Positions 1-64,000 of a stretch of 64,000 nt of DNA are shown in pieces; positions within the stretch are counted from its first letter, which is position 1, and the number at the start of each line of letters is the position of its first letter. The translations under genes and the position numbers were made by a program. The stretch is from Asterochloris sp. CNOR1 (taxonomy: Eukaryota > Chlorophyta > Trebouxiophyceae > Trebouxiales > Trebouxiaceae), in the NCBI GenBank assembly GCA_963969365.1, contig OZ017762.1, positions 744,001-808,000 of the forward strand. Reading direction: 5' to 3'. The notes beneath the pieces were generated by a model. The model worked only from the letters and a program-made list of their open reading frames with translations, had not been told where the DNA came from and did not search any database.

Positions 1-549
1 TTCCTAGTAAGCAGCGACATCGAGCCTACATCAGCTGCAGTCAGTCTGCTTTCTGACAACTGTATCCTGCGGCAGTAGCTGGCCGTTGGGCACCTGACAA
101 CCCACAGGTGGCCATCATGGCTGTGCTGGCAAAAGCCACTGGCAGCTCGATACCCATCAGCAGCTATGCCTCTACTCCAGGGCATGGAGGTGACTGTGCT
201 TGCTCAGCATGACCCTGCGCTGGGAGATGCATGCCGTCAGTCCACCTGGCAGTCAGAGAGTGCAACTCTATCAGGGGACCGGAGAACGAATGCGCCTGGC
301 TCACAGATACGACATTGTGCAGGAGCACATGTGCACCCTGATGCTTGTGCCGCAGCCAGCAACAGCAGGAGGCCAGCCAAACAACCCATGAACACCTCAG
401 TCAGTGACCACTTCTGTGCAGGTCAACCGATATGCAGACTGTGGACTGCAGGCACAAGCAGCATTCAGCACGAAGTGCTGCCACCCTGACCTGGACAACT
501 CTACAACAACCCATCTACAACCATAACTCAGCCAGCAGTCTCTGTGCAG
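1..549. other. Unresolved left edge, probably intron or 5' part of THOC7
   Basis: No exon could be assigned here. The next exon (550-720) starts inside the THOC7 coiled coil, so the N-terminal exons of that gene should lie here or to the left of the window. The stretch contains several TGCAG acceptor-like sites and short open frames but nothing that reads as the conserved THOC7 N-terminus. Confidence 0.4.
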
Positions 550-2328
550 GTGCACATGCATACACAGATGATAGATCGTAGTCACAAGCAGCAGGAGGCT
601 GACATCCGGCGCGAGGCTCAGCTCAAGGGGGAGATCGGCGCAGCCGAACAAGAGATTGATGCGGCCAAGGCGCACCTGAAGGTGGCCACAAGTCGCAAAA
701 GGGACCGCGACGCCGAAGAGGTACGAGCTCACTGCTATCCTCTGCAATCGCTTGCCTTGGGGAGTACCTGAGCAATGAGTGCGCCAGGCAGGGTGTGCCG
801 TCTGCTGGTCCAGTAGGGCTGAGTAGAACTTGGCCTTGCGGGGCCCTGAAGTCTGCCCCAGGTGGGCCTGGAGGTGGCCGGGGATCACGGGGGGATCCGC
901 TGAGCATGACAGCTGAGACTTGAGTACCATTTCTTGCCCAATTTCAGGGTACCACCCTGCCAGGGGGCTGTGGGCTTCAAGCTCTGTGCAGGGATGTAGG
1001 TCTCCGTCTCGGGCGAGCGTGCTCATGCCTGTCATGCTGGGAGCTTTGCGGGGCAGAGGTGCCTCTCTGTGGACGGGGGATGCTGGCAAAGGCTGCCTGG
1101 CCTCAGGCTGCTTTGCTCATGTCTCGCTTGTGCTGAGCCGTCAGCGGCCCCACTGTGCAGGGGTGCACCCGTCAAGCCCCCACCAGCGAGTAGCTGCACC
1201 AGTGGCCTGCTGCTGCAGGGGCTGCACCCATCGAATCCCAGCAACAGCAGGCAACCGCACCAGCAGGCTGCTGCTGCCATGAGTTCATGCATCACTCGTG
1301 CAGCCACATGTGCGCTGCTGTGCCCCGCCATCCGAGGACTCATGTCACTGTAGTCCTGCAATGCTGCACCTGCAGTGCAAGCACCTCGGTTGAGGCTGGA
1401 CCTTCAGGGACACCTGCAGGCCCCTGCTTTCCTCCCCCATATACACATGCACCCCACAGCTGCTGCAGCTGGTGAGCCACCCGCCAACGAGAAGGTGTCT
1501 GGAGTGCACCAAGAAGCTGCCAGCTGCACCAGCTATTGGCATCATGTTTTTTTATGCCCCTGCAGGTGCTGTGTCTGAAATGCATGCACCATGTGCCCCG
1601 CAGAAGCTGCGCTTACATTGCTTGAGCCAACCCCAGGCGCATGAATTGAGCTCAGTTGCCCTGTGCCCTGCAGGTGCTGCGCCTGGAGTGCATGCGCCAC
1701 CCCAAGCGCTCCAAGGCCAATGAGATGGCGCTTGAGGTTGAGAAGTCCACTGCAGCAGTGCAGATCGCAGCCAGGCATGAGGACGAAGTGCACGAGGTGA
1801 GACTTTGCGCAGTGCATGCCCCAAAGAGTGTCCTCTTTGTGTAACAAGGATGTAGGGGAATGGCAGGATTTGTAGAAGGCGGGACATCATCAAGTGTGGG
1901 CTCACCTGCATGTTGCTTAGTCACAGCAGCAGAACATTCTAGGCTTGCAGGCATGCGCCCAGCAGCTGGCTCCCTCCTCCCTGTCATGCAGAAACAGTTC
2001 TGTCTGATCGTTTTGTTTACGATACTGCAGGCATGCACCCTGCAGCTGGTCCTCCTCCCGCCTGTTGTGGAGTGATCAAAAATTCTTACAGGGGGGTGCT
2101 GTGCTGCAGGCACGCGCACAGCAACTCTGTCTGCTCCTGGCCATAATGGATGACACCCAGAAGTTGTTTGAGATGGACGCCGACATCCTGGAGCTGGCCA
2201 AGGCCCCTGCGCCGGTGCCGCCAGAATTGGAAGGCCCCAGCTGCGGCGCCTCCCCACAGCGAGATGACACCTCGCAGCCCTCAGCGTCGAGGGGAGCATC
2301 ACCCATGCAGCAGGATGACATTGACTGA
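550..2328 (+). CDS. THOC7: THO complex subunit 7 homologue, C-terminal exons
   Basis: THOC7 is a coiled-coil subunit of the THO/TREX complex, which packages nascent mRNA for nuclear export. Three exons are visible: 550-720, 1674-1796 and 2110-2328 (stop TGA). All join in phase 0 and introns start with GT. The joined protein matches the family pattern: a Lys/Arg/Glu-rich helix (KRDRDAEE), then a leucine-containing turn with HPKR, corresponding to the HPDR/PPRSET segment of human and plant THOC7, then a helix ending in an ARAQQLCLLLAIMDDTQ stretch, corresponding to the RRKQFHVLLSTIHELQ region. The spacing from HPKR to QQL equals the human protein only if the acceptor at 2109 is used rather than one at 2091. 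The tail is acidic and Pro/Ser-rich (ends QQDDID), as in other THOC7 proteins. The N-terminus is missing from view. Family assignment rests on motif order and spacing, not on a search. Confidence 0.72.
1561..1604 (+). repeat. Exon-edge echo of THOC7 exon 1674-1796
   Basis: A decayed copy of the acceptor and first coding bases of the exon at 1674 lies 108 bp upstream. In the first 30 bp, 25 match the copy at 1669-1698, and all five differences are C to T or G to A. Confidence 0.75.
1945..2070 (+). repeat. Two exon-edge echoes of THOC7 exon 2110-2328
   Basis: TTGCAGGCATGCGCCCAGCA (1945) and CTGCAGGCATGCACCCTGCA (2025) are decayed copies of CTGCAGGCACGCGCACAGCA (2104), which is the acceptor and exon start. 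The similarity continues about 20 bp further in each copy. Spacing is 80 bp. Confidence 0.8.
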
Positions 2329-5300
2329 CAGGCTACTGCTAGAAGGGCCCAAAACTACCGCCTCCCTACAGCCCCCTCACAATTGCAACACCGTGGCCAG
2401 GATAGACTGACCTGCTGGTCCCCGCAGAGACCTGATGAAACTTTCTGAAGAGCTTGGTGTCCCTGAGCGCCATCAGCCGGCGCTGCCAGCAGCAGCAGGG
2501 CCTGAACGTCCCCGCAGCCTGCACACTGAAATTGAAAGACCACCCCTGACACCCCTTGTTGCCCTCTAACACATCTGCTTCTCTGTCAATCCCTTCCTTC
2601 TGCTTCAGAAGTGATTCACAAAAGTGCACGGTAACTGGTGACAAGCAGGAACAGGGACACAAAGCGCAACCAGCTGTCAAGGCTACTCAGGTATCTGGGG
2701 GTAAATGCGCTCGTTGCCTATTCAGGGCGCCTCCTGCAGCTGCATTCTCATCCTGGTCTCCCATCTGCAGTACAGCAAAGCATTTTGCAGTCGGTGGTGG
2801 CGATCAACCTCAGGGGCACTGGTATGGTCAGCCTCAATGCTTGGACTGCAAGGGAAGATGTTAATTCACACAACTGTGCAGCTTCTCTGGTGCTGTTGCT
2901 CCCAAAGCTGCTCTGTAGGTGTGCCTTCCCCACAGTCACTTTCCCTATGGCATTTGTATCGAGCATGCTGACATGACTGAGACCCTTTAGTCCCCCCCGT
3001 GGTCTCATACAGCTCCCTCAGCGGGCTGCGCTGCTGTGCAGGTGCACCTCTTCCTGTGCGGCACAGTCAGGCTGCCATGGAGCGCATTGACTGGGCACTG
3101 CTCATGGTACTGACCGCATGTGATTTTGAAGCCAAGCAAAGCTGCACGTGCATACTTTGCCAAGGTTGGCCAGCAGGGCTGGAGCAGGTGTGCACAGGTT
3201 AAACAGCGAAGGGTTCACTACATCGTCTGTTGCTGCAGTGCTCATCAGGCCACTGTGCTGCCAGCTTGCTGCCCCACCTCAGAGCATCCCTGCGTTTCTC
3301 TGTGGGCGCCACATTCTCCTGTCCCTTGCCTTTTTGAGCCTGCCGCACAGCCTGCACTGGGACATTGCAGAGGATGCTGACCTGTGCAGGGCAGTGCAGG
3401 CCTCTGCAGTCAACTCAACTGCAAGTGGTTGGTGCTTCTGTGGAGCCTCTGCAGTGTGGCAGGCAGCATAGAGTGACAATTTCCTTGTGCAAAACTGTGC
3501 ATGCATGCAGCCAGGAAATGGACACCTTCTGGGAGTGCTCAACTTTGTTTGCTTCAGGAAAGCAGAAATGAACAGGTTGTTGGTGTAGCCCTGCGGGTGT
3601 TGACCACCTTGACTGGGACCGCTGGTGGTTCAGCTGAGCTTGAGCTGGTGGCTTTGAAGGATGCCACCTGTCAGTGCAGCTCTGTATCTACAGCTAAGGC
3701 TTCCAGTTTGTGTCTTATGGCTTCTCCATGCCAGAACAACCCACCTGGGAGTGCTTGATGTTGAGGTGCTTCAGCTGGGCCTCAGCCGCATGGCAGGCAG
3801 CAAACAGGGAGTTGAAGCTCTCCTTGGGGCGCCTGCTGACGGCTGAGTTTCCTCCCTTGGTGAGAAAGCTGTCCCTCTTCCAGGCTGCCTGCATCTGCCT
3901 GCAGGCAGGCAAGTCACAGGCTGGCCGGAGCACCAGTGGTGCCCATTTTCTGCTTGCTCCATGGCTGTGCCTGCCAGGCTGCCTCCATCAATGCAGACCG
4001 GTGGCGCGTGCAGATGCATGCAGCCCTGCCGCGCAGCTGGAACCCAGGCCACACATGCAGCCCTCACCTGTTGCGCTCGACACGATCCACTTTCTTGGGC
4101 TGAGGTGGGGCACCCGGCACCAGGAAGCTCCGGGTCAGCACAGGCAGGGTCCTGAGGGAGGCACTACTCCCCTGTGAGCGCAGGCCTGCAGCCTCTGCAC
4201 TGCCCCGGCCCCAGGTAGTGCTCCCTGTGGACCCCTTCCTGCACTCAGCAGCAGTCAGTGCTGACAGGGAAGGGTGGTCATGAGGCCTCCCTGCTGCCGC
4301 AGCACTTGCCTGGTGCTTGGCAGTGGTCCCTGTGGACCACCTCCTGTACAGCAGGTTTGCTGACACTGAAGCCGCGGCTTCAGCAAATCACCCTGACTTT
4401 ACTTCTGTGGACCCAGGCAGATCTTGCAGGAGGCAACCTGGGAGATTGCGCTGCTGGATTGAGGTGTAAGGTGCTGACCTTCAGGCTGCTAAGTGTCAGC
4501 AACAAGAGGCATCTGGCGCCACTGGTGACAACCCGCCGCTCACAAGCACACAGCGTTGTGCAGTTGGCTAGGACTGCACAGACAGACCTCTGCAGGATGC
4601 CGCCTTTTCCTGACAGTGTGTCTCCGCCCGCAAAACTGTGCAAGCATCTCAGCTACGCGCCCTGCTTGCCTCATCACTCCTGCGGCCCTGCAAAGTGCCA
4701 CCCTCAAGCCTGATGAAGTTCTGCATGTGTATCTCACCTGCGCCCCTCTTGCCCCAGCACTCATTCCACCCTGCAGGCCGCCGCCCCTTCCCTCGCAGGG
4801 ACCTCTACCCGCTCAAGGTGTGCATGCATTTCCCCCGGCAGACGCAGGCATCTCACGTCTGCCTCCTGCTCGCCCCCGCCCTGCTTGTCTCCCCCTGCAG
4901 GCGACTGCTCTGCTCTCGCAGAGTGTCGTGCCTGGTGAGGCCTTGCGCCCCTGCCGCGGTGCCTGCCCTCCCTGCTGCATTGTGCCAGCAGTCCGCCCCC
5001 GCGTCCAGACCCTGAGCCTCTGCTGTCTCCTGATCTTGCTCCCAGACATCCGGTTGCCAGAATCCCGGCCCTGCCAACCTGGCCTCCGGCTCTGCTCCAT
5101 TCTCAGCCTGCCAGGGGCTCTGCAGGTGCAGCTGCTCCTGAGCCGTGCCGCGCCCTGCAGGACCCTCCTGGGAGGACCGGCAGGACGGCTCCCCAAGGCC
5201 AGCTCCCTCTGTGTGGGCCTCGCCCCTGGAGGGCTGGCGCAGGCCTGGCTTGTCTGGATGCCAATGCTGCTCCCCAAAGCCATGGCGCTCAGCGCATGCC

Positions 5301-6607: not shown

Positions 6608-6653
6608 GGAAGAGGGGGGTCACTGCGTTGAGCTCTCATGTGTTCTCTGGAAC

Positions 6654-11017: not shown

Positions 11018-14000
11018 TCATGTCTGCGGAGCCTTGCCAGACTCCCCCCTTTGAGCCCCCTTGAAGGACTTGGTGATGTCAGCAAAACGGCTGCCAAACC
11101 CTCGCATGGAACCCGAATCTGGTGAAGCCTGCGGCTGCTGCTGCTGCTGCCCTGCACCTGGCTGTGGTGTACCAGCACTGGGCGCACCCCCTGCCACCCC
11201 ATTGCCTGTCTGGTGCTGGTCAGGCGCAGCCAGGCCCTGGAAGGTGGGCATAAGCCGATTGAACAGGCGGCGGCTCCCTGCGTCTTCTCCTGGAGGTGGC
11301 AGGTGCTTTGCAGGCGCCTGCTGCTGCTGCTCTGCAAGCTGGTGCTGGTACTGGGCCAGCAGCAGGGCACGTACGTGCTGGCGCAGCTCCCCTGCAGGGC
11401 AAGGATGTGTGTGACTTGTGGCACCCCTTAGAAATCACAATGAACATCAGGGGCGGCTTTTGATGCTCTGCCAGCTGGTGGTCGAGCATTGTCAGCAGCA
11501 GGACTTGCATGTGCTGGTGCACTTCCTGCGCAGTTAGTAGTCAGGATCTGCAAGCCATGCCACTTCGTGGTGGTCAGCCGGCTATATCTGAGCTGCTATG
11601 GGCTTGCATATGGCACCTCCCCTGCATTATGTATTGAGGAGCTCAGGGCACCCTTACCTGACTCAACCAGCAGGCCAGACAGCTCCTGCCGAAGGTCAGA
11701 CTCTGCGGCTGTCAGAATGAGGCTGTGCTCTGCTGGCGCCTCCAGGGCAGCCTGCTGGCTGGGCGCCGCCAAGAACAGAGCTTCTGCCATGAGCGCCTGA
11801 ATGGAGTATGCAGGCATCTAGTCAAATTTGACAGTGAGCAGCAGAGCAAGTGAATGAGGCCAGCATCAGGCAGCAGCTGCAGCAGCATGTAGCAGCCAAG
11901 CTCTGGCTCTATGGCAAGCCTGACTTGTGCTCGGTGCAGGATGGCAAACATGAAGCAGTGCTGCTTCTTTTCTTGCTGTGCCTCGACGCTGTCTGTGAAC
12001 ACGATACGCATCTATACAGAAGCAATTGTTCACAGCAGCTCAACAGCAGTGGAGCCCTGCTGCACTGCAACAACAGCTGCACAGGACAGCCTTCAACCTA
12101 GTGAGGCGGCATGCGCTTGGCATGCAAGGCTCACCTGTAGGCGGCCGTCTAGGGTGTCCAAAACCCCCAAGGCCTGGCCTGGCTGCAGGTCAGCTGCCGT
12201 GCCAGAGGCAGCATGCTCCAGGCTGCAGGCGGCCAGGCGTTGCTGCAGCGCGGCTGCCTCCCTCAGCGCCTGCTGCTGGACTCGCAGCAGCAGGTGCAGG
12301 GCTGCACGCTCCTGCAGGCATGGTTCCAGTCTTGAGTCTCCTGATATGGGATGTCAGCAGCAGTGGGTACAGGGCAGCTCCTGCTGTCATGCTTCATGTC
12401 ATGAGCAAGTGACACAAAGTGCATGCACCAATACATGCAGTGCAACTGCCTCCCTCTGCGCAAGCTCCTGTAAGGGGCTCTGCCACTGCAGTCCAGCACC
12501 ATTCACAGAGAGCAGATCTGCCGCACGGCCCAGTACAGCGCCCCACCTGGCTGACAGCCACAGCGCTGTCTGCAGGCGGCTCGGGGACCAGCTGTGGAGC
12601 GCTGCTGCTCTGGTCCGACCCAGTTGCTGCTGAAGCGCGGCCCGAGGCATCCCCTGCGTTGGGGCCTGCCTCAGCTTCTGGAGCAGCAGCAGGCCCAGCG
12701 TTGGTGACCGGGACAGTACCTCGCAGCATGCTGTCAGGCATGCTGCCCCCAGAGTCCCTCTCTGCTGGGGGACTCGCAGCAGCTGCTGGGCTGGCCTGTG
12801 CCTGTGCCTCTGTCGGGGGCGCAATGTGCTGGGGCCTCCTGCCGGCTGCCAAGAGGTCGCCACCAGAAGCAGCATCCTGCGCATGCACGGCAGCGCCCGC
12901 AGTGGCAGCACCTGCTTGGGGCTCCAGCCGAGCGGCCAGCAGCTCTTGCAGCTGCTGATGTGTCTCACGTGCGTCCCGCAGCTCAGCAGCCTGCATGTCA
13001 GATCAGGACCAGGTTCACCAGCAGTGATGGAAGCCAGTGCCCAATGCACCTTTGCAAAGATATAGGTTTGCCAGAGTGCACCAGGGCGACTGCAGGTCAG
13101 GCAACTGAGCTCTATCCTCCAGCTGGGGCAGCTACTTCCTGAAGATACATGTACTTGTCAGAGTCCACCAGGGCAGCTGCAGACCAGGGGACTGGCCTGC
13201 ACTGAGCCTGGCTGACCTGCTGTGCCAACTGCTGCTGGAACTCCTCCTGCTGCCTGTGCAGCTGGTCTGCGAGCTGCTGCGCAGAGGCGGCCTGGTCGCA
13301 CTTGGCCTCCAGTGCCTTGCGTAGGGACTTGACTTCCTTGGCCAGCAGCTGCAACAGGGATGGGAGGCACAGTAAAGAGGCAACACATGTTGAGAAATAG
13401 AAGGACTGCGCAGAAAGTGGACATCCTGACCAGCAGCTGCAGGGAAGGCCTCTCTGGCTGGGACAGCATGGTCTTTTCGCTTCCCTGACAAGCAGGTCCA
13501 GCACAGATAGCTCAGCACACAGCATGGCCTCCACCTTTTCTGGTGAGCAATGCACATACCTAACTCAGCGGCCACAAGCGGCCTTTGGCCAGGGCCCAGC
13601 ATCGTGAAGGTGCAATACAGGCGTTGTGGACCACAATATGGTCAGGTGTGCCCTGTGGCAAGCCTGGCCCACAGCCTGTCTGGCAAGCAAGCAACAACGA
13701 TCTGGTGCGCAACCTGCACAGCAAGTGCACAAGGCGATGATCGCTGCCTGCAGCTCTTGGTTGGGCACCTCGTGCACAGGAGATGATGAAGGCGCCAGCT
13801 GTTACCCAGTGTTGATGCGATCAGAGAGGGCACACCCCTGCAGGGCTGACCTTCTTATCAGCTCTAGACTGTTGCTCAGCCTGCACCATCTGCTGCCGGA
13901 CGGCAGCAAGGGCCTCCTCATGGGCTGCCGCCGCGGCCGCACCCTCCCTGGCAGCAGAGTCCACCTTGGCCTGCAGGTCTGTCTGCTCCTGGCTGGCTGC

Positions 14001-18125: not shown

Positions 18126-20263
<2,138 letters not shown>

Positions 20264-20440: not shown

Positions 20441-20491
20441 TCCTGCAACTACCACACACGCTTAGCAACTGAACAGCCTAGGCAAAGTTAC

Positions 20492-47500: not shown

Positions 47501-50500
47501 ATGACCACCACACCAGTGAAAGTTTGCAGGACCTGCACTACCCAGAAGAGTGGTAGCCGGTGGCCAAGGAAATGCACAGCAGCATGGCCGCCTCAGAGGA
47601 GGGGTAGCTCGCTTGCATGTGCTCGGCCAGGTGTTTCAGGTGGCAACCATTTGCATGCAAGTGCAGGGCAGGGCCAAGTGATTCAGGTGGGAAGCCGCAC
47701 AGACGACCAGCCAGCCCATGGTGGACATCTTGCTTCAAGGGGACGCCATGTAAATGCCCACAGCTGTCCCAGAATAGATCATGTGCTTGCTCAAGATACA
47801 AGCAGTAGCCAGATACCAGAATCACAAGATACAGCACAGCGTCCTCAGCAGCTACACATCTGGGCAGCAGTACAGCAGTTGTAAAATTCACCCACCAGGG
47901 TTCCTGAGCTGCAGCTTGACCTCCCGTGTTTTATCCTGCCAGGCATCTGCTCCCAGCTCCAAGCGAAAGGGTTGCAGCATGGACAGTGCCCCAGCTGTGG
48001 TGAATGTCCCATCCAGTTTTCTGGATCGCAGCTCCACCTCTGCCTTCAGAGACACCACGCAAGTCAGTGCACTGCTGCCAGCAAAGAGGATGAGTGCCAC
48101 GCCATGTCAGCAGGGTCCTGTGTGTGCAGCTGTGCTATTGCCTGCAACTTACAGTTGACAGATAAATTTGTGTGAGTGTGCAGGCAGCTCTCTATTCCCA
48201 CCTGTTGCAAGACCTACCACTCCAGCAGTGTGTGACACACAGCATAGCCCACCTCATTGAGCTCTGCAGCCAGCTCCCTGTTCAGATTGCTGCAGCTCAT
48301 CTGCTCCCACACAAAGGGCTTGCTCAGGCCCTGGCTGGCTGCATCTGCCACCATGAGTGCAGGGTAGGTAGCAAAGGCTGCAATATCAGCACACACTAGG
48401 GCTGCTGCAGGCCCCATGTCAAAGCTGCCCTGCAGCTGCTGGCCCGTTGCACCTGCAGGACTAAGCTTCTTTCAGGATTTTGCTTCAGTCTGATGGACAC
48501 AAGAATACAGCGAAACAATGTCTACGCAGAACAGATCCGCGCCCATGGGGCAGCATGCTTGTCGCCTTTTTAAGCTGCCGGAAGCACTGCACTGCAGCTC
48601 ACCTGTGTGGCTGCCATCCACAGCCGTCGCTGTCCTGCACTGCAACTGCAGGCTGTAGCGGTGCCGGCGACGCGGCGTCAGGGTCAGCCGCAGGGTTTTG
48701 TAGGCCCGCGCTGGCAGCAGCCCCTGTGGCTCCTCGATGACCAGGTGCTCTGCAGCAGCAGCCACCTCGTCTGCTGCTGCTGCTGCAGGATCGCCTGCCT
48801 CTGCTGCTGATGCCATCTGGCCCCCCTCAGCAGGTGCTGCTGCTTCATCTGCTGCTGCAGCCAGGCCTGCATGAAAACCATGGGATGTCATGGCCAAGGG
48901 CATGCTGCTAGCCTGCGCCTGCTGAAAGCAGTCGACACAGCTCGTCTCTGGGCCAGGCAGGGCGCGCAATGTTGAACGCTGCACGCCTCGCATGCCTAGT
49001 CCTTGCAGTGATAACGGCAGCAGGCCAACATGCATGAACTGCAGGTCGGTGCAGGCCCCACAACATACGCATCACCATGCTCGTGTGCAGGCAGTGGTGG
49101 CTGCCCCAAGGTCCTGCTGGCATTGCCACTCAGCTCAGCACCTTCAATTTAGTTTCCTACCCTACTTGTGAGCGCCCTCACCTTCTGAGGGGACTGCCAC
49201 ACAGCTGAGGTGATACTTCAGCTTTCCATCGCTCTGGTTCAGCAGCGTGACTGTGCGGGCAGCAGGGAAGCCCACGGCCAGAGTCCCCATGTGGATGCTG
49301 CTGGGCTCCAGAGAGATGGCGCCTCTGGTACACTCGCCCACCAGCTTCAGGCTGACTACTGGCACAGTCGCCTCTGTGTGCCCTGACTCGAGCTGCATTG
49401 CAGCTGTGCTTGCCAGGAACAGAGGCTCTGCGGCGCTCTCCTGGCTTGCTGCACCAGCTGTCTGCTGGGTGGGAACAAGCAGGCACCTGACTTTGCCATC
49501 ATGGCGGCCCAGTCTGTCAGGGGTAAACTGCCAGACGGCAACCTGCCGCTCATTGCCTCGTAGCACTCCCGCTGGCGGCTGCACAGTGAAAGCTGGCTGC
49601 AGCTGCTGGGGCACCTCCCACTGCATACAAGAACAAGGCAATGGTCAAACCCTGCCAGGGGCCAGCAGCGCCTGCATCTCAGAAACGCTGTAGGCGACAG
49701 GGGTCGCTCAGGAGGGCTGCAGGAACCTGCCCAGAAGTGCAGGGTATCGACGAGACCTAGACAGGTCTCTACAGCTTGACAGAGCTGCACAAAGCAGCAT
49801 TCTCATGCAGGTGCAACTCCCATTGCATTGTAGAGTGCTGCAGCAACATGACTGCGTTGGGCCAGCCTGTTGGTCAGCCATCTTGCGCGGTTGCGAGTGC
49901 GCAAGCACAGTGTTCAGAATGCAGTGGGTCCAGGGGTTCTGACCAAAAGGCAGTGGCATAGCAGAGGAGTCTGACCTGATAATGGGCTGCAATGCAGGAG
50001 GGGTTGTGCAGCGTGAGGGCCCGCTGGGTGGACGCTCCAAGGCAAGTGGGCTTGAATATGACTGTACCGGAGACATCACATGCGAGGTCAGGGCTGCCCA
50101 CAGCAGCCGTCAGCAGCAGCGGAAGAGCGTTCCTCTGCAGCAGTAGGAATCTAGCTTCAGGGGCAAGTGCACGAGGCAGTTGTGAGAGTTGATGCCGCAT
50201 AGCGCTGTTTAGCAGAGGCTAGATTGCAGTTGCCTTGGCCTTGGTGGGCAGGTCTGCCGTTTGAAGCTGCAGCTGATGGCAATCAATGCTGACTCCTGAC
50301 TTGGAATGGTTCCAGCACTCAACTAGAGGTGCTCACCTGGCTGCTGTTGAGCACACAAGATAGCCTGGCACTGTGTCTGCCTGCTTCAGCTGCCCTGAAC
50401 TGAACCGCCACCAGCTGCCAGCTCTGCGGCTGCAGCACACCCCTGCAGCAATTCAGCACATTGCTGGTACCTTGTGACGCAGATTAAGATGCCCAGCTCT

Positions 50501-53500
50501 CTTGGCCAAGGGCCTTTAGAGATGCAGGGCCTTGCTCAATGCAATATCACAGGTCTATGCAGGGCTGTAAGCCAGATCTGAAGTGGCAAATGCCACTGCC
50601 ATGTGCCTGACAGCATGAGCATCAACAGGAGGGCCAGCGCACATGTCTCATGCTAATCACTTCGCTAAAAGTCCCCCTCACCTTTCAGCCAGTGTGCAAG
50701 CTACAGGGGACACTGCACCAATAGCTAGTCACACATGCCACCTCCAGCAAGCCATTCATTGTCTCACCTGCTTGGCGTGCAGGCAACCTGTGGGGGCCAC
50801 TTGCAGCCAGCGTAGGTCACACTGTGTCAGCAGCGTCATGCACACAAAACCTTCAGTGCGCTACATTTGCTCTCACCTGCTTGGTGTGCAGGCGAACTGG
50901 GGGGCCAGGGCCAGCCCCTGCATATCGAATTGCACCGCTGTGTCCCCATTGTTCATCAGCATCAGCGTCTGGTGGACCGACTGCCCCACTAGGCATGGTT
51001 GGAAGCTCAGGCGGCTGCTGGACAGCTCCACTTTGACCTCTGCCTCCTCATGCTGGTGCAGAAAGGTGTTGCCCACCACCTGCACCACCAACTGAGTGCT
51101 TTGCGTGAGGTCACATGGGGTCAAGCACTGTCCTGTAGTGCCACTGGTGCAGGAAGGTGTTGCCCTTTGCCTGCTGTGCTACACATTCCGTGTGTGATGT
51201 GTGCTTGTGGAACAATGGAATTTTCAGCCTCCCTTGTCCTGTATCAATATGTTGGCCACAATATGCTGCATTGCCGTAGGTCAGGAGAGCTTGCTTCTGC
51301 AGGCCTCCTCAAATAAGCTTGAACCTGCGCTGCCCTGAGTCACACCCAACTCTCTCATCTACAAGTGGATGCGATGCACTGCAATGAGGAGGCCTGACCT
51401 GAAGCATGGTGGTAGAGGGCATCGGCACGTACCCGCCCCCTGCCTACCTGATGGTTTACAGCTGTGTGTACAGCCACAGGGCTATGCAGACTGGATGCCA
51501 CCAGTCTCTTCTGAAACGCAACGCTGCACAACAACAGCTTCGGGCTGCCCTGGCCCCCACCAGCCTCAAGCTGAACCGCCTGATGCACATCCTACTAAAC
51601 CCTGCTCAAACGATGCACAATGCTAACGCAGTCTTTAGAGCAGGCCGACCTGCAGCCTGGAGGTCAAAGGCGCCCATACTGCCCCCTTGCCCACTACCTG
51701 CCCCTGTCAGCAGTGCAGCTCATACCATCTTGACATGGGGCCACCAGGTCTTGATCTGACCTGCAGAGTGGCGGTGAAAGGCGCCAGCACCGCACCCTCC
51801 CCGATCAGCCTGAAGCTGCGCTGTGCCTTGACATAGGCCACCACGTCCAGCAGGCGAGTGTAGTAATGGCCGTCTGCTGGGGGCCTGAAAGTCACCCTGA
51901 AAACGGCCGTGCTGTTCGGCCGCAGGTCCAGCTGGTCAGGGAACACCTGCAGGGGGGATGCAGCCTATGTGTGAAGTCACCATTGCAGGGTCGACTTGGC
52001 AGTGCCTGCAGAGGAGTACAAGGTGCTTTCCTTGAGGCGCTGGCTGCAGGTGCAGCACTGCCTGCAGGCGCACCACATCACTTGCAGAACTACTATACAG
52101 GAGTATCTTTGTAGAGCATGCATGATGGATGTGCAGCAGTGGGACTCTGGAGCCAGGCCCTGCTGTGGGGGCACAGGTCCCCTGTTCAAGGAACACCTGC
52201 AAGGGAGGGGAGGCAGTCCAAGAATGCAAAGTTCTGACCTGCAATGTGGCAGTCGTGAGAAAGCCTGTGGGGTCTGGTGTCTTCAACTCTTTGGCAGCAA
52301 GTGCCTGTTGGATAGCTTGTGTATGGGAAGCCTTGAGGTGATTACCGCTTAAGTGCTGTTGCTCGCAGTAAAAGCGTACACAAGGGTTGTGATGCCCTCT
52401 CACCTGAAGGATCCCAGGAGTGATGACTGCCTGCCCCTGCTGCTGTGCAGCACCCAGGGGGCCAGCAAGGTGTGCTACCACTGTAGGGCTCAGTGGCCTA
52501 CGCCAGGCCCTCCACCAGCTACCATAACAATGTTGAACTCGTCACACTACCAGTCATTGATGGCAAACAGCTGGCATGCACCTGACAGACCTCAGGTGCA
52601 GCAGCAACCTGCCCCTGCTGCTGTTTGGCTGCCAGAACCCCGGCCAAGATGGCTGACAGTATCCTGATGAGTTGGCAACACACTGTTGCCGCCACTCAAC
52701 AAATGTGTGCCTTCCTTATGTTTTCCCACCTGCACCACTACAGGCGCCACAGGAGCCTGATCCTGCAAGTGTGCTTTAGCTAAGGGCCCAGCAGTGATAG
52801 GCCCTAACACCAGGGTAAGGTGTGAGGCTGTCCCACCTGAAAAACCTCAGGTGCTGCAGTGGCCTGGCCCTGCCGCTGTGTGACAGCGAGAGGCCCAGCA
52901 ATGAAGGCCGTCAGCTTCACGCTGGTGTGGTTGGTGACTGTGAGGGTGCGGTGCTCCCCGCTCTTCAACCGTGACTGGGACCCAAAGTCCAGGAGGGTGC
53001 TATCCAGGGAAATGGCGTGCAGGAGGTCAGTGCCATGAAACAGTGCCTGCCACCCTTCTGCAGGTGGTGAGGATGTGGCAAGGTCAGCACCAGGACGTCT
53101 TGTGCTTGCAAAGCTGGCGTGCCGTCTGCTGAGCTGACGGTTTGTGGGCCAGTGAGAGCAGGAGCAGCAGACAAACAGGCCTCTTTCATCATTGGATGCC
53201 TGTCACCTGCTGAAGCAATTCAATGAGGCTGCTTGGCACCTCGTATGCAGCTTGTCCTGGCTGTGTGTGTCAGGTGCAAGCAGCCACGTGGCACCTCACC
53301 TGCTGTCTGCGTGCCTTCATGGCGACTTTCGACCTCCACATCTGGCACCTCCCCACCCTCCAGCAGCACCTGGCGCTGCTCGAGGGAACGGGCAGCAGCT
53401 GCTTGTGCCATGAAGTGCTGCAGTGCTGCATGCGACAGAGGTGGGGGGCGCTGGGTGTCTGTGAAGCAGCTGCCCAACAGGTCCACAAAAAGTGCTGGCC

Positions 53501-56500
53501 CGTCCTGCAATCACAAAATGAAGCCTTTGGCGAAGAGCAAGGACGCTGTGAGGAGCAGAGCCACTTGCTGCCGCAAGTGGAGCAGTAGGACCAGATCAGC
53601 CAGTCTCTGGTATGCTTCATGTTGCATGCCTGCCCTCTTACTTGGCAAGAGGACCTGAGGATGTGTCTGCAGGCTGCCCAGAGTGGGCAGAGTCACTCCA
53701 GCCTTGCCTGCCCACTGTGGCCACACATCACAACCTGAAGCTGCTGAGGCAGGCAGCAGGCAGCATGATCACACCTGAATGCCAGGCACATGCAGGTCAT
53801 GCCGCGAACATGGCTGCCACAGGCTGGCCTCACCTTGATGAGCACAGTCACCCTCTTCCAGTAGTTGGCCGCCACAGTGGGCTGGAAGCCCAGCGTGACA
53901 TGGGCTGTGCTGCCTGCTGCAATGCTGCCGCGCACCCTGTCAGCCCCAAACACTCCAGCAGCATCCATGGCCAGGTTGAAGAAGGCTGGCACCTCACAGG
54001 TGTTGTGCAGGTAAATCACCCTGCTGCTGCTTGCCCCGGCTTCCAAGCTACCAAAGCTGAGGCTGCTGCTGCTGAGGGAGACTGCGGGTGGCGTAGCAGT
54101 ACCCTTCACTGTGAATACTACCTGCAGGCCCACCGCAGGATTCGAACAGTCCTGCAAGAAAGCTGTCCAGAGCTGCAGCTGCTAATACCAAGTGGGACTT
54201 CAGGCAGCATGACTGTGCCGTCTAGTGTAAACACCGCCTGCAGGCACAGTGCAGGTCTTGGTTTGAGGGCTTAACTTGAATTCGCAAGACACCTGCTAAG
54301 GCCTTGACAGCCACTGTGTGTGGCGCTGGCTCGCCTTCACTGCAAACCACCCTTTTGAAGATCATCTGCAGGCGCTTCTCAGGGGGAGACATCATGTGAA
54401 GGACACTGGGCTAAGACCTGCAATGGCCACTAGCAATGGCCAGGCACTGTAGGCAGTGCTGGGGTGGCATAGATTGCAAGCATCACATGAAGGCACAGCT
54501 TGAGCAAGGCACAGAGGTTCCTGTGAATGCTGCATGCCAGGAGCACTCCTCCGCATCCTTGCAAAACATGGCGAGAGCTGGACATCACAACACAGCACAG
54601 CAGCTCTTCAGCTGGGCTGAACTACTCTCGGTACAATGTCTGCAACAATGGGCTGTCACAAGCTGCCCACTGGGTGATTGCGCATGGGCTGTGAGATCTG
54701 CTGACTGAGCGTCTCCAGGGACCTGGTGAGGAACTGTTGGCAGCAGGCAGCCTGATCAGTTCCCACCTTATTGCCGCCTGGAGACAGCACCTGGAAGCTC
54801 TGGCACGAGAATGTTCCAGCAGTGGCAGGAGTGTACACCACACTGAGCGAGGCTGCCTGGCCTGCCGCCAGGGTGCCCCTGCAGCCAGGAGATGTGTGGC
54901 CGCCGAAGCCGGAGATGTGACACTGTGCGTGAAGTGATACAGTGCATCAAGCTGTCTCAGAACTTCACAAGGGTGACTGATCTGCAGCATCAGCACTCTG
55001 ACTCCTGATGTCAGCATGCATGCAGCCGGCAATGCTGCAAGCTACCCCCGCGCCTTTGCCCACATATAGTCTGCAATTGTTATGGTTTTGCACACAAAGG
55101 CATGAATCAGGAATGTCCACCTCCCTAACCATCACCTTGAGGATTGCTGCCCATCCCAGTACAAGATATGCTGCAGATGTATGTCCTGGGCACTCTTGGG
55201 TGGAAGGTGCACATCAAGACCACCCTAGAGACATCGTGTCTGGCTTACCAGGTGCCAGCTTTGCAAATGCACATAGTCCTGCCATACATGGTGAGCAAAA
55301 AGGAACGAAAGGCGCATATGGCAGCTCACCTGGCAGCAATCACTTTGAAAACATCGTCTGACGGCTCTGCAAGCGTCGGCACCACATCAAAGTCTGTTGC
55401 AACTTCCCCTCTGTTCCACAGCACTGTGGCCTGCTCAGCCTCCTCCCCAACCAGGACTTGACTGAAGTCCAACTCAGCATGCTCAATTGCCAGGAAGGGG
55501 TACCGTCCGCTGCCTGTCAGCTGTGGGCAGAGGCAGGCGTCAGGACGAGCAGGCCCAATATGTGTTAGGGGCAGCTGCCTGTATGCTTCACTGTCATGCA
55601 AGGGCAGCACCTGCTGCCACTTGACTCATCTGCAGAGGCTGGCTCAACCCTGATGCCAAAGGTCGGCCGCTAGGTCTTGGGCTGCGGTCTTCCTCCTTAT
55701 GCAAGTTGCATTTTTGCAGCAATAGACTTGCAGCTCAGCATGCTCTGCTGCCAGGGCGGGTGGTGCCTGCTGCCCGTCAGCTACAGGCAGAGCGGCAGGC
55801 ACCTCCGGTGTCACATCCAAGACGCAGGAGGGCTGGTCAGGCAGCGGCAGCATGTTCGGCTGCCAGCAGCATCATGCCTGTGATTGAGGCGCAGATACAA
55901 ATCAAGGGAGGATGCCTGGTGACCTCTCAACAGCAGGGCTGGCCACAATGCACACACAGCTCCCCTGGCCAGGATGTATACAAACCTCCCCAGTCTGCAC
56001 AGATGCTGTCACGCCTTGCCACAATGCCGAAAGCCTTGACAGTGCACAGCTGGCCAGTTGTGCAGCGCATGCATGCACGCCTCATGGCCCAGCAAGCCCA
56101 CCTGCACCCTGGAGGTGGCGCCACCCTCTGCAAGGCATCCTGCGACTGCTTCATATGCAGCAGCATGCTGCGGCGTGAAGGACACCTCAAAGAGGCCTGC
56201 ACGAGAGCAGAGCGGGCGTAAATCCGCAGCTGCCTGTGCAGGACTCCATAGAACAAAATAAGCAGTAGGGCTGGCACCGCACAGCCCTGCAGCTGCAGTA
56301 CAGGTCTTCACCAAGGGATGAGGGGCACAAGGCTGAACCACACTGCACTGCAACAATGCCACAGGGAGGCACCATGCTGCCATGTCAGCAGTGCTGGGTG
56401 ACCCTGGTTGGCATAAAGCTGCCTTTGTATAAAACGCCAGGACGATGTACCTGAAGCGCCTGCTGCTAGCATAGCTGAGGCTGGTGAAATTGCAAAGGGA

Positions 56501-57830: not shown

Positions 57831-60800
57831 ATGGATTCCATCAAGAACAGCATACACAAAGTCTACAAGGGTGCAGCAGAGCAGATCCTGCCAGTGAGGA
57901 GCCAGTCAGCCTTCAAGGAGCAAGGAGTGAGTGCCAGGGCAAACCCGCAAGCTGTGGTGGTGCAGCAAAAGCAAGATGCCTGAGACTCAATCTGACAATG
58001 CAGGTGCTTACTCCAGACGAGTTCGTGGCAGCAGGCAACCATCTTGTGCGGACCTGTCCAACATGGTCCTGGTGAGTGAGAGCCTGCCAGTCAGCATACC
58101 GCTCATGCGCATTTCTTGTCTCCTGAGCTGTGCACTGCCTGCAGGGAGGCCGGGGATGCTGGCAGCAAATGGTCATTTCTGCCAAAGGACAAGCAGTTCC
58201 TTATCACTCGCACAGGTCAGCCTGGGTAGCCGAAGCGGGCAGCACCAGTGCATGCAGGGAGCGCACTGCAGGTGCCCTCAGGCTTGATGCCAGGGCCCCT
58301 GCAGACAGCTTGGGGTCTTGTGAGAGAAATAACATGGCACATGCAGATTGTTCATCATGCAGAGCAGTCAACCATCTGCCGTCAATGCCGTGCAGCATTT
58401 CTCCGGCCCCAGTCACGTTGTTCCCTGGCACTGGCATGGCTCAGTCATCATCGAGCATTCACAGCTGTTGCAGCCTTCATGCATGTGAAAACAGAGCCTG
58501 CCGGACTTTGGAGAGCTTAAGCCAGGCACTGTGAAGTCATACATGCTCTTGAGCATTTCCATTCTGCCTTGCAGTCTCCTGTCACTGTGAAGGTGTTGAT
58601 GATGGGGCTTTGAACCGCACAGCCCTTTTCACTCTTGCTCTCAGGTCTGCCCATTCCACACATTGTGCAGTCCCCTGCCATCGGCGAGCAGCAGCAGTGG
58701 AGGGCTTCAGCCAGGCAGCAGAGCAGCTGCTGGAGACACAGGATGGAGAGGCAGAGAGCTGGGTTGCGCCTGAGGCTGATTCAGGGGCAGGGCCCAGTGA
58801 GCAGCCACCAGAGATTCCTGCAATTGATGATGAGGGCCCCAGCAGGTAAGGGCAGCCTGACACAGCGAGCTGAGATGCACCAGTAAAACTTGTAATTCAT
58901 CACAAGTCATGTCCCGAAAATCCCTGGACTTGATGATGAGCGCTCCAGCAGGTGTGTGGCCGGCCTCATGCAGCAAGCTGGGTGATCCTAGAATAGGAAT
59001 CATGGGCAGGGCCAGTAGGCAACACGATACCAGGCATTGATGACCAGCGCTTGGGCAGGTGGGAAGCTGGTTTCAAGCAGCCTGTAAGTCACTCTGCAAA
59101 GGTCCCCCAATCAGTAGGTCCCAGAGATCCCAGTCTGAACACCAACGACCTCACCATCAGATGAGCAGCTCAACCATGAACTGCATCACAGACTGACTTA
59201 TCGCGCTATGTGCAGCAAGCAAAGATTTCCTGATATTGGCAATGCACCAACAGCAGGGGTTTGGTACAGCAGCTGGTGGTGGCTGAGGATTGCCGAGTGT
59301 CATCATGCCACAGGCATCACTGCGCGCTGAACAGGGCATGCTGCCATGTCTCAGGCAAGCCCACAGCAGGTCAAACGCTACTGTCTTGACAGCACCAGCC
59401 TCTTTTCCCTCTGGCTGCTCTCATACAGCACGGGGCATGTGACCTGCCCTTGCCTTTTCCCTGCAGGACAGCACAGCAGCAAGAAGGCTCAACAGCAGCA
59501 CTTGCCGGCGGCAGCGATGAGGTTCCAGATATGGACGATGTGCCAGACATCGACGACCTCACCCTGGCTGAGGAGGATGACGAGGTCAGCACTGCTTTGC
59601 ATATGTTACTGTGAGGCATTGCGGCCAATCAGAGGTCTGCATTGGTGCCACCCAAGTGTATCTGTGGGCAAGCAGGCTGAGGCATGCCCACATCATTGCC
59701 GGTGACTGCCATATACCATTGCTCTGCAGTTCGCACATTGCAGCACCTTGTGCACTACAGCTCGGGCCGCAGTCAGGCAGGTTTGAACATATTGCCCATT
59801 TGCAAGGGATAGCACTGCCTGCAAGCTGCACTGCCGTCAAATGCAGGCTCCCGGAACAGCTCAGCTCTGTGAGCCATAACAACCACTTCCAGCCTGTCAG
59901 GCTGCCTGCAGGCAGTGTTGCTCGTCAAGTGCAGGCTGTGCAGTGACATGATGCAAGGGCAGCAGCCAGGATGAGCCCCCATGTCTGGCAGCAACCTGAC
60001 ATGTCCAGAGCTGCCTGCAGGCTGCCCTCCCGTCCATGTCGGGCCCGCGGCAGGGTCAGGATCCCACAGACTCCATATTGCGCACACGCACCTACGACCT
60101 GCTCATCTCATACGACAAGTATTATCAGGTGTGTTGATTTTGAGGTCTGCCTAAGCACAATGACTCACTCCAAGCCGTTGCCAATTACCTGCTCACAGCA
60201 GATCCATGCCGTCCCCGTGGCTGCCACAAGTTTTGGCCCCTGGAACAACCTGCCAAGAGATGCTGCTGCACAGTGAAGCAATCAAAGTATTCACCTGAAC
60301 AGTCTGAAAAATTTAGCTCTGCTGACCAGCTCTTTCTACTTTGGGATCACAGCAGCTCCCTGCTTGATTCAGCAGTGCAGACTCTGCTGTGCCTTATAAC
60401 CGCAGCCACCGGGGTGCCTTATTGCATCCCTGCAGGTGCCGCGTTTCTGGCTCGTAGGGTATGATGAAGACAGGCAGCCACTACCCGCCAGCAAGGTGCG
60501 CTGCATGGCAGGCATTGGTACACGATTATTCCTGTGTAGCCAGCCGGCGGCCACCTGTTGGCCACGAATTTGCGTGAGCAAACATGACGCCACATGCATT
60601 AGCTGGCCATCAGTCCCTGCAACAGAGTCAGGGCTTTGAGGCTGACCATAGGCCATGCTTCCTCGCTGGTGCCTTGAGATAAGTTCCTGATGCTGCCCAG
60701 CATGGGTCCTCAACGTGCTCAGCGTGCCAGCCTTGGACACTGGACAAGTCACTCGATCACAGCTTTGGCCAACTGTGGTGTGCTATGGCTTGGTGTGACA

Positions 60801-61707
60801 GGGCGTCATACAGGCCGAGGGGTTTGGGCTGAGATGCTGCAGGATGTTAGTGAGGGGCTTCTCTCTGAGGGAGTCGTAAGCCTCCACCAGTGCGCCCCCC
60901 ATGGAGTAGCAACCTCTTGAGCGCTTTTGTTTTGGACATGTCTTGCCTGCCGGGTTTTGGGAGGAGCATGCCTGCAAACCATCACTGTGCCCCACAACTG
61001 TTGCTGCTGACTCTGCAGATGAGGAGGGGTGCTAGCCATCAGCAGCCAGGTTTGGCAGCGCTGTGCCCGCACAGCAAGAGCAACCTCTTGGCAATTTTGC
61101 ATATCATTCAACCTTGCTGTGCAGGTTGTGGAGGGCGTCAGCAAGAGGGTTCAGCCTGTACATTGCCTTCTTTGAGGTCATTCAGCAAGCTTTCCTAAAG
61201 TGTATCTTGTGGTGCAGGTGCTCGAGGATGTGAGCGAGGAGCATGCTCGCAAGACCATCACTGTGGAGAAATTTCCCCACATGCCAATGATCACAGCGGC
61301 CTCCATCCACCCCTGCAAACATGCAGTCACCATGAAGAAGCTGTCCAGCATGATGGAGACTGACAGCCATCACATCACTGTTGACAGGTGGGGTCTGAGA
61401 ACCAGTGCACAACTTTGTGAGGCTACAGCAGGTCCTCTGCAAAGATCTCATCAAGCTGAGGCCATCTTTGAAGATGGGACCTTAGGGCGCAGGCCTTTGC
61501 AATGCATGCTGATTCCATGGCCAGATACAATGACCGGGTCCAGTCAGCTCAAGTTACTGCAGCATTTGTACATAAGGCTCCACCCTTGACGGGCAGCTGC
61601 TGACAATGCTGCTTGCTACCTGCAGGTATCTCATCCTCTTCCTGAAGTTCATTGCCTCAGTGGTGCCTACCATTGAGTACGACTACACAATGGCAGCAGG
61701 TCTCTGA
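57831..61707 (+). CDS. ATG3: Autophagy-related protein 3, E2-like enzyme for ATG8 lipidation
   Basis: ATG3 takes ATG8 from ATG7 and transfers it to phosphatidylethanolamine on the growing phagophore. Nine exons give 315 residues with exact phases: 57831-57926, 58004-58071, 58145-58215, 58671-58845, 59467-59584, 60021-60128, 60436-60495, 61218-61387 and 61626-61707 (TGA). Sequence order matches plant ATG3: an amphipathic N-terminal helix (MDSIKNSIHKVYKGAAEQI), SAFKEQGVLTPDEFVAAG, CPTWSWE, LPKDKQFLITRTVPC, an acidic flexible loop (VPDMDDVPDIDDLTLAEEDD), ILRTRTYDLLISYDKYYQ, PRFWLVGYDED, DVSEEHARKTITVE, the catalytic Cys in IHPCKHAVTMKK, and the C-terminal YLILFLKFIASVVPTIEYDY. Length is close to plant ATG3. 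The intron before exon 8 (722 bp) contains decayed pieces of that exon. Confidence 0.96.
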
Positions 61708-62061: not shown

Positions 62062-63910
62062 TGGATGCTGCCTCACCCAGTCATAAGGGCCATCTGGCCC
62101 CCACGAGCAGCCACCTGTCGGACTCTAATATCCTGAAAAGCCTGTTTGCTGTGCACCTGAAACTTTTGTCAGTGCCATGGCATGCTGTGCTCTGGTGGAT
62201 GAACAAGACAGCAGTACTGCTGGTACGGTCGCTGGAGGCCTGTGGCGCAGCCCCAGACATAGTGGAGAATAGCAAGCGCAAGGTGGGTGCAGCCTGTCCT
62301 CACATCTGTGTCTGCACGCCTTCATATCGAACCTTCATTCTCTTAGTAGCAATCAGTAGCCCAGGACAGGAAGAGGCACGGCCGTCAGCACTGCAAAACG
62401 GGCAGCACCAGAGTGCTGTCTGGTGCAAAGCGGTGCCTGCTGTTCTCCCAACTGATTTCTACCAACAGAGAAGCCTGTTGGCCAGCTGCAGCCCAGACAT
62501 GCCAGGCGGAAGCAACATGCCCTCCAGAACAGCCCAGCTCTGAACCTGGGACAAGCGGCCTGCAGGTCTGGCCGAGGCCGCTGCAGCAGGCTTTGGTTGC
62601 TACTCTGCAGGGCGAGTAGCCTCAGCAGCGAAAGTGCCGCAGCGTCACAACAGCCTGCTGCCTGACCTGCAGGGCCAGCACTCTCAGGAGCAATTGCCTG
62701 GACCCTGGAACCACATGGGGCCACCCTGCCAAGAGTTGCCAACCACCAGATCGTCCCGTTAGCCTAGTGCTTCTTGCCTTGCAGGGCGAGCAGTCTCAGG
62801 AGCAGGTGCTGGGCTGGATGAAGCGGGAGATGGTTGCCAAAGCCAATGAGATCAAAGTGAGCTCCTACTACCGGGCACACTCAGCACTTGCTCACCTGTT
62901 GTCTTGAGCACCTGGTATGCACCTCTGTTGTTGAGAACCAAGCAGCATCCATCTCCACCACTGACTGCCCGGAATAAGACAATTGCCTGTGCAGCCAGGA
63001 GAGCGTTCTGCAGCAGACTCTCCAGCATGGTTGCTTGCTGGACCGTGGCTGTACCACAAATCCTACTCTGCAGGCCATGAGCAGCTCTGTCTGTCACATT
63101 GCTGCATGCTCTGCATGCACCAAAACCTGGGATGCTTGACCTGCCCATATCTGATGCAGCAGCCCTTGAAAGGTCTGTCTCTCATCCGCTTGTTTCCTGC
63201 AGAGGCTGACAGACAATTTAGAGACATGCCAGGCAGCGAAGCGCAGGGCGATTGTGAAATTGCAGCGGGTGAGCAAGTCTCTCTTTGCCAGCTATGTTTT
63301 TGTCAGGTCCCTGAGCAGGAAACTGCAGCACTTGTGAACAGATGTGTCAGGTGCATCTGTGCCAGTATTGCACTGCGTCATGAGCTGGCTCAAAGTTCCC
63401 ATATGGCAGAGCCCAGTGCGCACAAGCCAATTAGTCATGAGGTTGCCCACTCCCAGCATATCAGCTTCTGCATGTCCCCTGCTTGCAGCATGACCAGCAT
63501 CTAGCTGTGCGGACAAGCCGGGTTTCCCAGCTCGGCTGTTGATGCAGCTCTGTCCTCTGAGCCAGGCACAGGGCATGCGCGCTTTGCACGCCACACAGAC
63601 ACGGCAACAAAACACTTTGCAGGCGCCTCCTTGGTCAGACTGAACGTACCACTGCAGGAGCAGGACTGTGCCATCTGCAAAGCATATACCAAGGCAGCAA
63701 GCTGCCTTGCAGATGTCGCACACACCAACCCACCCCCCCCCCCCCCCCCCACCCAGGCGCTTCTGATGGAGCAGTGCCCTGCAGGCACGTGAGGACTGTG
63801 CTACTTTCAAGGCTGAGCTGCAGGAGGAGCAGAGCCTGCGCAAGGCAGGGCCTGCCCCCCACAGGCATGCTGGGGATGCTTCGACTCATCCTGCGCCCAG
63901 TCAGCCGCAG
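62062..63910 (+). CDS. Unidentified coiled-coil protein, 5' part, continues beyond the window
   Basis: Not recognised. Four exon candidates join in phase 0: 62062 to 62282 (MDAASPSHKGHLAPTSS..., ending DIVENSKRK before GTGGGT), 62785-62856 (GEQSQEQVLGWMKREM...NEIK), 63203-63268 (RLTDNLETCQAAKRRAIVKL) and 63785-63910 (AREDCATFKAELQEEQSLRK, then His/Pro-rich), with a GTAGGG donor at 63911. The charged heptad-like pattern across exons 2-4 suggests a coiled coil. The first exon and its start are the least certain. Two decayed copies of the start of exon 2 lie in the intron before it. Confidence 0.5.
63733..63750 (+). repeat. 18-nt poly-C run in an intron
   Basis: Eighteen C residues lie 35 bp upstream of the acceptor at 63784 and could act as a strong but unusual polypyrimidine tract. 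Confidence 0.85.
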
Positions 63911-64000
63911 GTAGGGCAGCTCAGGCCCGCACTTTTGATGTGGGTGTTGTGGCTTGGCAAGTAGAGAATGCCGCAGCCTTGCTTGGCGAGCAGGGTGAGC

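Follow-up and report, generated by a model that had tools for sequence, protein, structure and literature searches.

In this study, the introns of a 64,000-nucleotide stretch of Asterochloris sp. CNOR1 (contig OZ017762.1, positions 744,001 to 808,000; hereafter the window) were found to carry diverged copies of the exon edges that adjoin them, as an earlier note made from the sequence had claimed. This is a real observation: 29 of the 84 exon edges tested in the window matched their own intron better than all 200 foreign-intron controls, with about 0.4 expected. The best explanation of these copies, here called echoes, to which we give a probability of roughly 70%, is tandem duplication that is blind to splice sites and is made visible by conserved exons. 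Most of the data do not need a process specific to splice junctions.

The window, with a guanine-cytosine (GC) content of 58% and genes rich in introns, is part of a 56.38-Mb genome of 21 contigs; the part of the Asterochloris glomerata report drawn on here gives a 56-Mb genome, a GC content of 56-62% over 98% of the genome and about 9 introns per gene (PMC6652019). The window was chosen after the pattern had been noticed there, so its rate is inflated; a 200-kb stretch of another contig (C1:500001-700000), chosen without looking, served as the comparison stretch. The gene model was self-trained on both stretches, from scratch and without annotation. An initial gene finder, self-trained at order 4 with a weak intron cost, yielded 2327 exons in 42 genes and was discarded, and the final model comprised 42 genes and 661 introns in the two stretches with sharp splice motifs, the motifs learned by the second finder being AG|GTGAG for donors and CTGCAG|G for acceptors. 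The word CTGCAG, which overlaps the acceptor motif, occurs 276 times in the window and also leads the word list of the comparison stretch (712 times in 200 kb). The gene finder errs in that separate genes are still merged and short weak exons within introns are probably false; the prediction 57696-33481 merges at least three genes (CFAP65, a middle gene and PCID2) and has two internal stops. Each edge query consisted of 20 bp of intron and 50 bp of exon, with its own intron as the target; exons with a log-likelihood of at least 8 and introns of at least 140 bp were used, each edge had 200 length-matched foreign introns as controls, and a strict echo was scored where the own intron beat all 200.

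Strict echoes were detected at 18/40 acceptors and 11/44 donors of the window, and a repeat run with fresh controls gave 19/40 and 10/44. The comparison stretch exhibited the same pattern more weakly, with 35 of 344 edges positive (14/170 acceptors and 21/174 donors). The window was therefore richer (Fisher 2e-7 for acceptors, p 0.05 for donors), and this excess could possibly reflect duplication at a regionally higher rate or a preference for junctions. When the intron on the wrong side of the exon was the target, 0/32 edges of the window and 1/134 of the comparison stretch were positive; queries from exon middles gave 0/17 and 0/59, and those from intron middles 1/61 and 14/188. Within the window, no edge was positive against the reverse complement of its own intron (0/84), its reversed own intron (0/84), one foreign intron (0/84) or other introns of the same gene (0/83). 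For the two stretches together, the own intron was positive for 62/428 edges and its reverse complement for 2/428, which indicated that the copies lie in the same orientation as their source, and the reversed own intron, other introns of the same gene and one foreign intron gave 0/428, 1/411 and 1/428. Own-intron matches, the comparison by which the earlier note had proposed to judge its claim, were thus far above the foreign, reversed and same-gene controls. Moreover, an annotation-free scan found 60-bp pieces with a match of score at least 100 in the next 400 bp at 103 of 1797 window positions, a count that includes an 81-bp array at 27.4-28.0 kb, compared with 2/1797 for the reverse complement of the next 400 bp and 1/1797 each for sequence 1.5-1.9 kb away, random distant places and the reverse complement of the latter. 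The corresponding count in the comparison stretch was 77/3165, against 1-17 in the controls, the 17 being the near reverse complement.

The 29 strict echoes of the window, each of which beats all 200 foreign-intron controls, are as follows; the names THOC7, EREX-like, TDRD3-like and COQ3 are those given by the earlier note.

316..373, + strand: echo of acceptor 550, gene at 0.2-2.3 kb (THOC7); 42/58 identical
1589..1640, + strand: echo of acceptor 1674, THOC7; 40/52 identical
1946..1987, + strand: echo of acceptor 2110, THOC7; 31/42 identical; a further copy at about 2026-2059 pairs with 1946-1981
3411..3460, - strand: echo of donor 3744; 37/58 identical
11478..11533, - strand: echo of acceptor 11391, EREX-like gene; 37/56 identical
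12338..12400, - strand: echo of acceptor 12311, EREX-like gene; 46/67 identical
14077..14125, - strand: echo of acceptor 14008, EREX-like gene; 44/59 identical
15219..15274, - strand: echo of acceptor 15175, EREX-like gene; 44/56 identical
18801..18860, + strand: echo of donor 18689, UPRTase gene (Pfam PF14681); 38/60 identical
21204..21246, - strand: echo of donor 21343, methyltransferase gene (Pfam PF08241); 33/46 identical
23832..23890, + strand: echo of donor 23761, COQ3 (Pfam methyltransferase domain); 39/61 identical
24626..24694, + strand: echo of acceptor 25009, COQ3, coding PLARMGASVTGIEPEQ; 48/69 identical
25895..25923, + strand: echo of acceptor 26017, COQ3; 26/30 identical
35686..35750, - strand: echo of acceptor 35643, PCID2, coding PAKSRGALRLCSS, edge within the 8r7j_B alignment; 49/66 identical
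36238..36303, - strand: echo of acceptor 36034, PCID2; 49/70 identical
36475..36546, - strand: echo of donor 36669, PCID2, in the same intron as the echo at 36238..36303; 45/72 identical
42177..42232, - strand: echo of acceptor 42132; 35/56 identical
44742..44792, - strand: echo of donor 44896; 35/53 identical
46673..46733, - strand: echo of acceptor 46465, CFAP65 region; 40/62 identical, the lowest score of the 29
47525..47557, - strand: echo of exon start 47478, the block starting 4 bp inside the exon; 27/33 identical
49093..49138, - strand: echo of donor 49181; 30/46 identical
50751..50808, - strand: echo of donor 50876, CFAP65, edge coding GLALAPQFACTPS (FAP65-aligned); 46/60 identical
51144..51174, - strand: echo of acceptor 51079, CFAP65, edge coding VVGNTFLHQ (FAP65-aligned); 26/31 identical
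51645..51693, - strand: echo of donor 51760, CFAP65, edge coding GEGAVLAPFTATLQ (FAP65-aligned); 36/49 identical
52156..52218, - strand: echo of acceptor 51946, CFAP65, edge coding VFPDQLDLRPNSTA (FAP65-aligned); 49/64 identical
52579..52631, - strand: echo of donor 52836, CFAP65, in the same intron as the echo at 52156..52218; 42/53 identical
55732..55792, - strand: echo of acceptor 55520, CFAP65, edge coding LTGSGRYPFLAIEHAEL (FAP65-aligned); 46/62 identical
58914..58973, + strand: echo of donor 58846, ATG3 (Pfam PF03987); 43/60 identical
60959..60989, + strand: echo of exon sequence 16-48 bp inside acceptor 61218, ATG3, coding EEHARKTITV; 28/32 identical

The introns 36035-36669 and 51947-52836 each hold one donor-edge echo and one acceptor-edge echo. 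Among the six proteins scanned against Pfam, which did not include the EREX-like and TDRD3-like ones, the UPRTase, methyltransferase and ATG3 genes matched the families listed above, the COQ3 model contained only methyltransferase-type domains (one of the two methyltransferases in the window is the COQ3 of the earlier note), and no family was found in the THOC7 or PCID2 model. A protein search with the PCID2 model gave no match at E <=0.001, and its identity comes from solved structures (E 1.2e-34; chain 8r7j_B aligned). The best match of the CFAP65 model among solved chains was FAP65 (7n61; E 8.5e-140), which we take to be from Chlamydomonas. Several echoed edges in the CFAP65 and PCID2 parts align to the known proteins (VFPDQLDLRP, VVGNTFLHQ, LTGSGRYPFLAIE, GLALAPQFACTPS and PAKSRGALRLCSS) and are therefore truly coding edges. 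Eight of the nine gene models of the window with testable edges carry at least one strict echo, and a relaxed count (exon log-likelihood >=3, p<=0.01; 33/129 edges positive) reached nine of the ten genes that the earlier note had named. Its statement on how widespread the copies are is nevertheless too broad, since about one third of the edges, and not nearly all, carry echoes and the TDRD3-like gene has none (0/5 strict, 0/10 relaxed).

The 64 echoes of both stretches (29 and 35) have aligned blocks of 28-70 bp with a median of about 53 bp, the upper bound being the length of the 70-bp query. The junction lies within the aligned block in 58 of the 64, in agreement with the earlier description and partly as a result of query placement. 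Median identity was 0.74 for acceptors and 0.72 for donors, and the distance to the source ranged from 57 to 363 bp, with a median spacing of about 110 bp for acceptors and 150 bp for donors. The window values (69-363 bp for acceptors, 71-334 bp for donors) are close to the 80-370 bp reported earlier; a spacing in multiples of 85 bp, suspected from the window rows, was not upheld in the larger set. A second copy at p<=0.01 was present in 10/29 echo cases of the window and 6/33 of the comparison stretch, so that one to three copies, as had been stated, is a fair description for about one third of the window cases. With overlapping queries, the match rate was maximal for those whose start lay some 20 bp into the intron (26/76 in the window and 36/311 in the comparison stretch at offset -20) and had nearly gone 60-80 bp inside the exon (2/182 and 4/670 at offsets +80 to +140), and the intron-interior rate was 26/298 and 57/1179. 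Mismatches affected every codon position and were slightly more frequent at the third (0.232/0.220/0.305 at positions 1/2/3 for acceptors and 0.230/0.236/0.302 for donors), which indicated that the copies decay almost free of coding constraint. The earlier note had suggested that the copies could supply a reservoir of alternative splice sites; AG was retained in 20/29 and GT in 20/29 echoes. The AG/GT columns were 77-90% identical and the C before AG was kept in 28/29, compared with about 60-90% for exon columns, and this identity may reflect slight retention or simply the fixed splice site of the exon. Introns with echoes were longer, with a median of 382 bp in the window against 248 bp for those without and of 389 against 265 bp in the comparison stretch, as expected if duplications lengthen introns, yet a longer intron also gives more room for a match.

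We suggest that stretches of about 40-100 bp would be tandemly duplicated throughout non-coding DNA, regardless of splice sites. A duplication inside an exon would alter the protein and mostly be lost, and one inside an intron or across one junction would leave the messenger RNA (mRNA) unchanged if the outer splice site stayed in use, so it could persist. Both copies of an intronic duplication would decay, and the pair would soon be unrecognisable. In a duplication that crosses a junction, selection would preserve whatever part of one copy is exonic, and the other copy would remain readable for about twice as long. Later duplications, insertions and deletions would separate the copies and break up the blocks, and introns would thus grow partly through small tandem duplication. 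That the copies fall in the intron is to be expected if selection removes duplications within exons. The echoes are pervasive and would most likely be a neutral side effect of small tandem duplications that arise often. We infer this neutrality, as well as the loss inside exons, the later insertions and the repair step that generates the duplications.

The local repeat pairs of the two stretches bear on this reading; the pair counts exclude clusters starting at 27300-28100 (the 81-bp array), which reduced the shifted-annotation count from 96 to 84. Of the ten pairs that score at least 200, five are head-to-tail, their units measuring 40-75 bp. Among the best-scoring pairs, those at 178213 (72-bp unit, 97%), 69042 (68 bp, 90%) and 82355 (56 bp, 94%) of the joined comparison stretch have this form, and few young pairs were present in the 264 kb. 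Moreover, 58 of 200 merged local pairs lie wholly within introns. As regards recognisable minisatellite arrays of near-equal units, Tandem Repeats Finder gave 12 rows, none of which overlaps the 29 echoes; under relaxed settings at least two are picked up (13991-14136 and 35597-35760). The proposal of the earlier note that introns lengthen by tandem duplication across junctions is therefore supported as far as lengthening by tandem duplication is concerned, by the own-intron excess, the tandem form of the best-scoring pairs and the longer introns with echoes, but not as a process special to junctions; neither the duplicates within introns nor the simulations that follow support the latter.

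In the simulations, small tandem duplications arose anywhere and were lost inside exons, with conserved exons, decaying introns and balancing deletions. Edge rates without duplication were 0.01-0.02. At steady state with a rate of 0.003, the rates at p<=0.01 were 0.10 for acceptors, 0.07 for donors and 0.08 for intron middles, near to those of the comparison stretch (15/170, 23/174 and 14/188). In all eight site-blind profiles the rate was highest at the junction (0.06-0.34) and lower in the interior of the same profile (0-0.13), with a median block of 54-60 bp, a spacing of 73-128 bp for acceptors and 60-144 bp for donors, and an identity of 0.70-0.78; the seven older-burst profiles gave a peak of 0.10-0.34, an interior of 0-0.13, blocks of 54-60 bp, a spacing of 73-144 bp and an identity of 0.70-0.75. 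The simulated peak was about 2-6 times the interior in 6/8 settings, and higher in the two with an older burst and a high indel (insertion-deletion) rate. The junction peak arises because selection keeps one copy of a junction-crossing duplication constant. The simulations resemble the data in the height of the peak, the length and divergence of the blocks and their spacing, so that exons probably serve as conserved templates against which old duplications can still be read.

Several observations weigh against this explanation. In the older pairs the blocks are shorter, at about 44 bp, and the spacers are near control identity; these pairs are mostly non-adjacent (median gap 66 bp for intron-intron and 91 bp for junction-intron pairs, the gap being <=15% of the spacing in 4/47 of the latter), and their flanks are near control identity (0.415 vs 0.406; 0.431 vs 0.409 for exon-bearing pairs), so that later insertions or a non-adjacent copying step would be needed. 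Exon-exon pairs were not depleted relative to circularly shifted annotation (4 vs 4.6 in the window, 9 vs 11.2 in the comparison stretch), and that count thus gives no support for loss inside exons; exon-intron pairs numbered 10 vs 10.2 and 12 vs 16.8. The simulation settings (three sets of 6, 8 and 8) were hand-chosen and not fitted. The acceptor peak of the window (17/38) is above all eight simulated profiles (highest 0.34), and only a high-rate steady state reached it (0.46), with intron middles at 0.50 against 1/61 in the window; burst settings gave intron-middle rates of 0.04-0.15, and a denser window scan was less extreme (26/298). The median donor spacing of 150 bp exceeds all settings with 60-bp units (60-120 bp), and 100-bp units came near (144). 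Edges at start and stop codons were few, with 1/7 and 1/10 positive.

An alternative, the strong form of the idea in the earlier note, is that exon-intron junctions are targets or preferred sites of duplication, perhaps through R-loops, exon-edge chromatin or selection that keeps decoy splice sites. Junction-by-intron pairs were enriched over shifted annotation in both stretches, the window having 30 against 7.6 and the comparison stretch 35 against 13.5 (0/400 shifts reached these counts), and in the window the intron-intron pairs fell below it (17 vs 30.4), the acceptor peak exceeded the simulated profiles and edges surpassed intron middles (29/84 vs 1/61, Fisher 2e-7). In the comparison stretch, however, edges did not differ from intron middles (35/344 vs 14/188, p 0.35) and intron-intron pairs equalled the shifted annotation (47 vs 45.8), and the site-blind simulation peaks at the junction as well. 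Targeting of junctions is therefore considered unlikely. It is likewise doubtful that junctions are true hot spots, in which case intron growth would proceed inward from the ends, splicing or exon-edge chromatin would determine its pace, and the acceptors of some chromosomal regions would be hit most.

Somewhat less likely still is non-adjacent templated copying, in which break repair would copy pieces of 30-60 bp from neighbouring DNA and place them 60-300 bp from their source. The unrelated spacers of older pairs fit this possibility, as does the finding that block ends extended above the null 95% level at only 11/128 ends, which is a weak test. However, exon interiors should then be copied equally and copies should appear on either side, contrary to the exon-middle (0/17, 0/59) and wrong-side (0/32, 1/134) results, and half of the ten best-scoring pairs are adjacent.

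It is very improbable that the echoes are an artefact of shared low-complexity words (CTGCAG, CAGCTG), of false exons in repeat arrays or of a dispersed repeat family. CTGCAG is about 14 times as frequent in the window as base composition predicts, and the gene finder makes errors; nevertheless, the controls that share such words were nearly empty (1/428, 1/411, 0/428 and 2/428, against 62/428 for the own intron), and the edges in CFAP65 and PCID2 can be aligned to known proteins. Furthermore, in a search of the own genome that skips very common words, window positions 50700-52700, 24580-25200 and 1-2000 matched only themselves, so a dispersed family, which would have spoken against the earlier note, is not the source in the first two of these stretches. 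If introns were gained when an exon piece bearing AGGT is duplicated (the Rogers model), the donor block would be repeated at the acceptor and the repeats would also involve exon edges, but this is scarcely credible here, as the donor and acceptor blocks of the same intron matched in 0/20 cases of the window and 1/116 of the comparison stretch at p<=0.005 (1/20 and 10/116 at p<=0.05).

Two other features of the window are repetitive or mobile in character. The array at 27400-28050 consists of units of about 81 bp in 6.6 copies and is a member of a dispersed family with at least 54 own-genome matches, of which nine are on contig C17 and the eight best, self included, are all on C13, C16 or C17; the gene model 28567-27280 is probably an artefact of this array. 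A predicted gene at 6984-10056 contains sequence that by eye resembles an endonuclease and a reverse transcriptase, and is probably a non-long-terminal-repeat (non-LTR) retrotransposon.

The echoes may be compared with several known systems, each taken from parts of the cited reports. In the potato RdRp gene, a tandem duplication across an intron-exon boundary copied the splice signals, and an 83-bp duplication also lies inside an intron (PMC4974935). As in that case, the duplicated block here holds the junction (58/64, partly by query design) and the match rate peaks there; the potato example, however, is one recent event with a new intron supported by RNA, whereas the present cases are many, old and decayed, and spread over many genes. 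The Rogers model (PMC2891723) likewise takes tandem duplication as the source of exon-derived intronic sequence, but the two blocks of one intron are then mutual copies, which was not observed, and here existing introns lengthen. The small tandem duplications that result when staggered breaks are filled in and end-joined (PMC8355091) match the best-scoring pairs in size and head-to-tail form; most pairs of the present set, by contrast, are old and have lost their adjacency. Introners (PMC9860276) are also a source of intronic sequence across many genes, but they are genome-wide copies of one element, whereas each echo is specific to its own exon. Among the papers listed by a literature search that covered few subscription papers, none was a general account of exon-edge copies within introns.

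In conclusion, the component processes are already known, and what appears to be new, within the literature searched, is their scale, with about one third of the tested edges in the window and about one tenth in the comparison contig carrying an echo. These findings suggest that exons may allow a history of intron duplication to be read that is otherwise erased. Intron growth could be measured by counting how many conserved edges have echoes in excess of a background from foreign introns, for which one genome suffices. If echoes prove equally common in other genomes with long introns, small tandem duplication would, alongside transposons, account for a part of intron length that can be measured.

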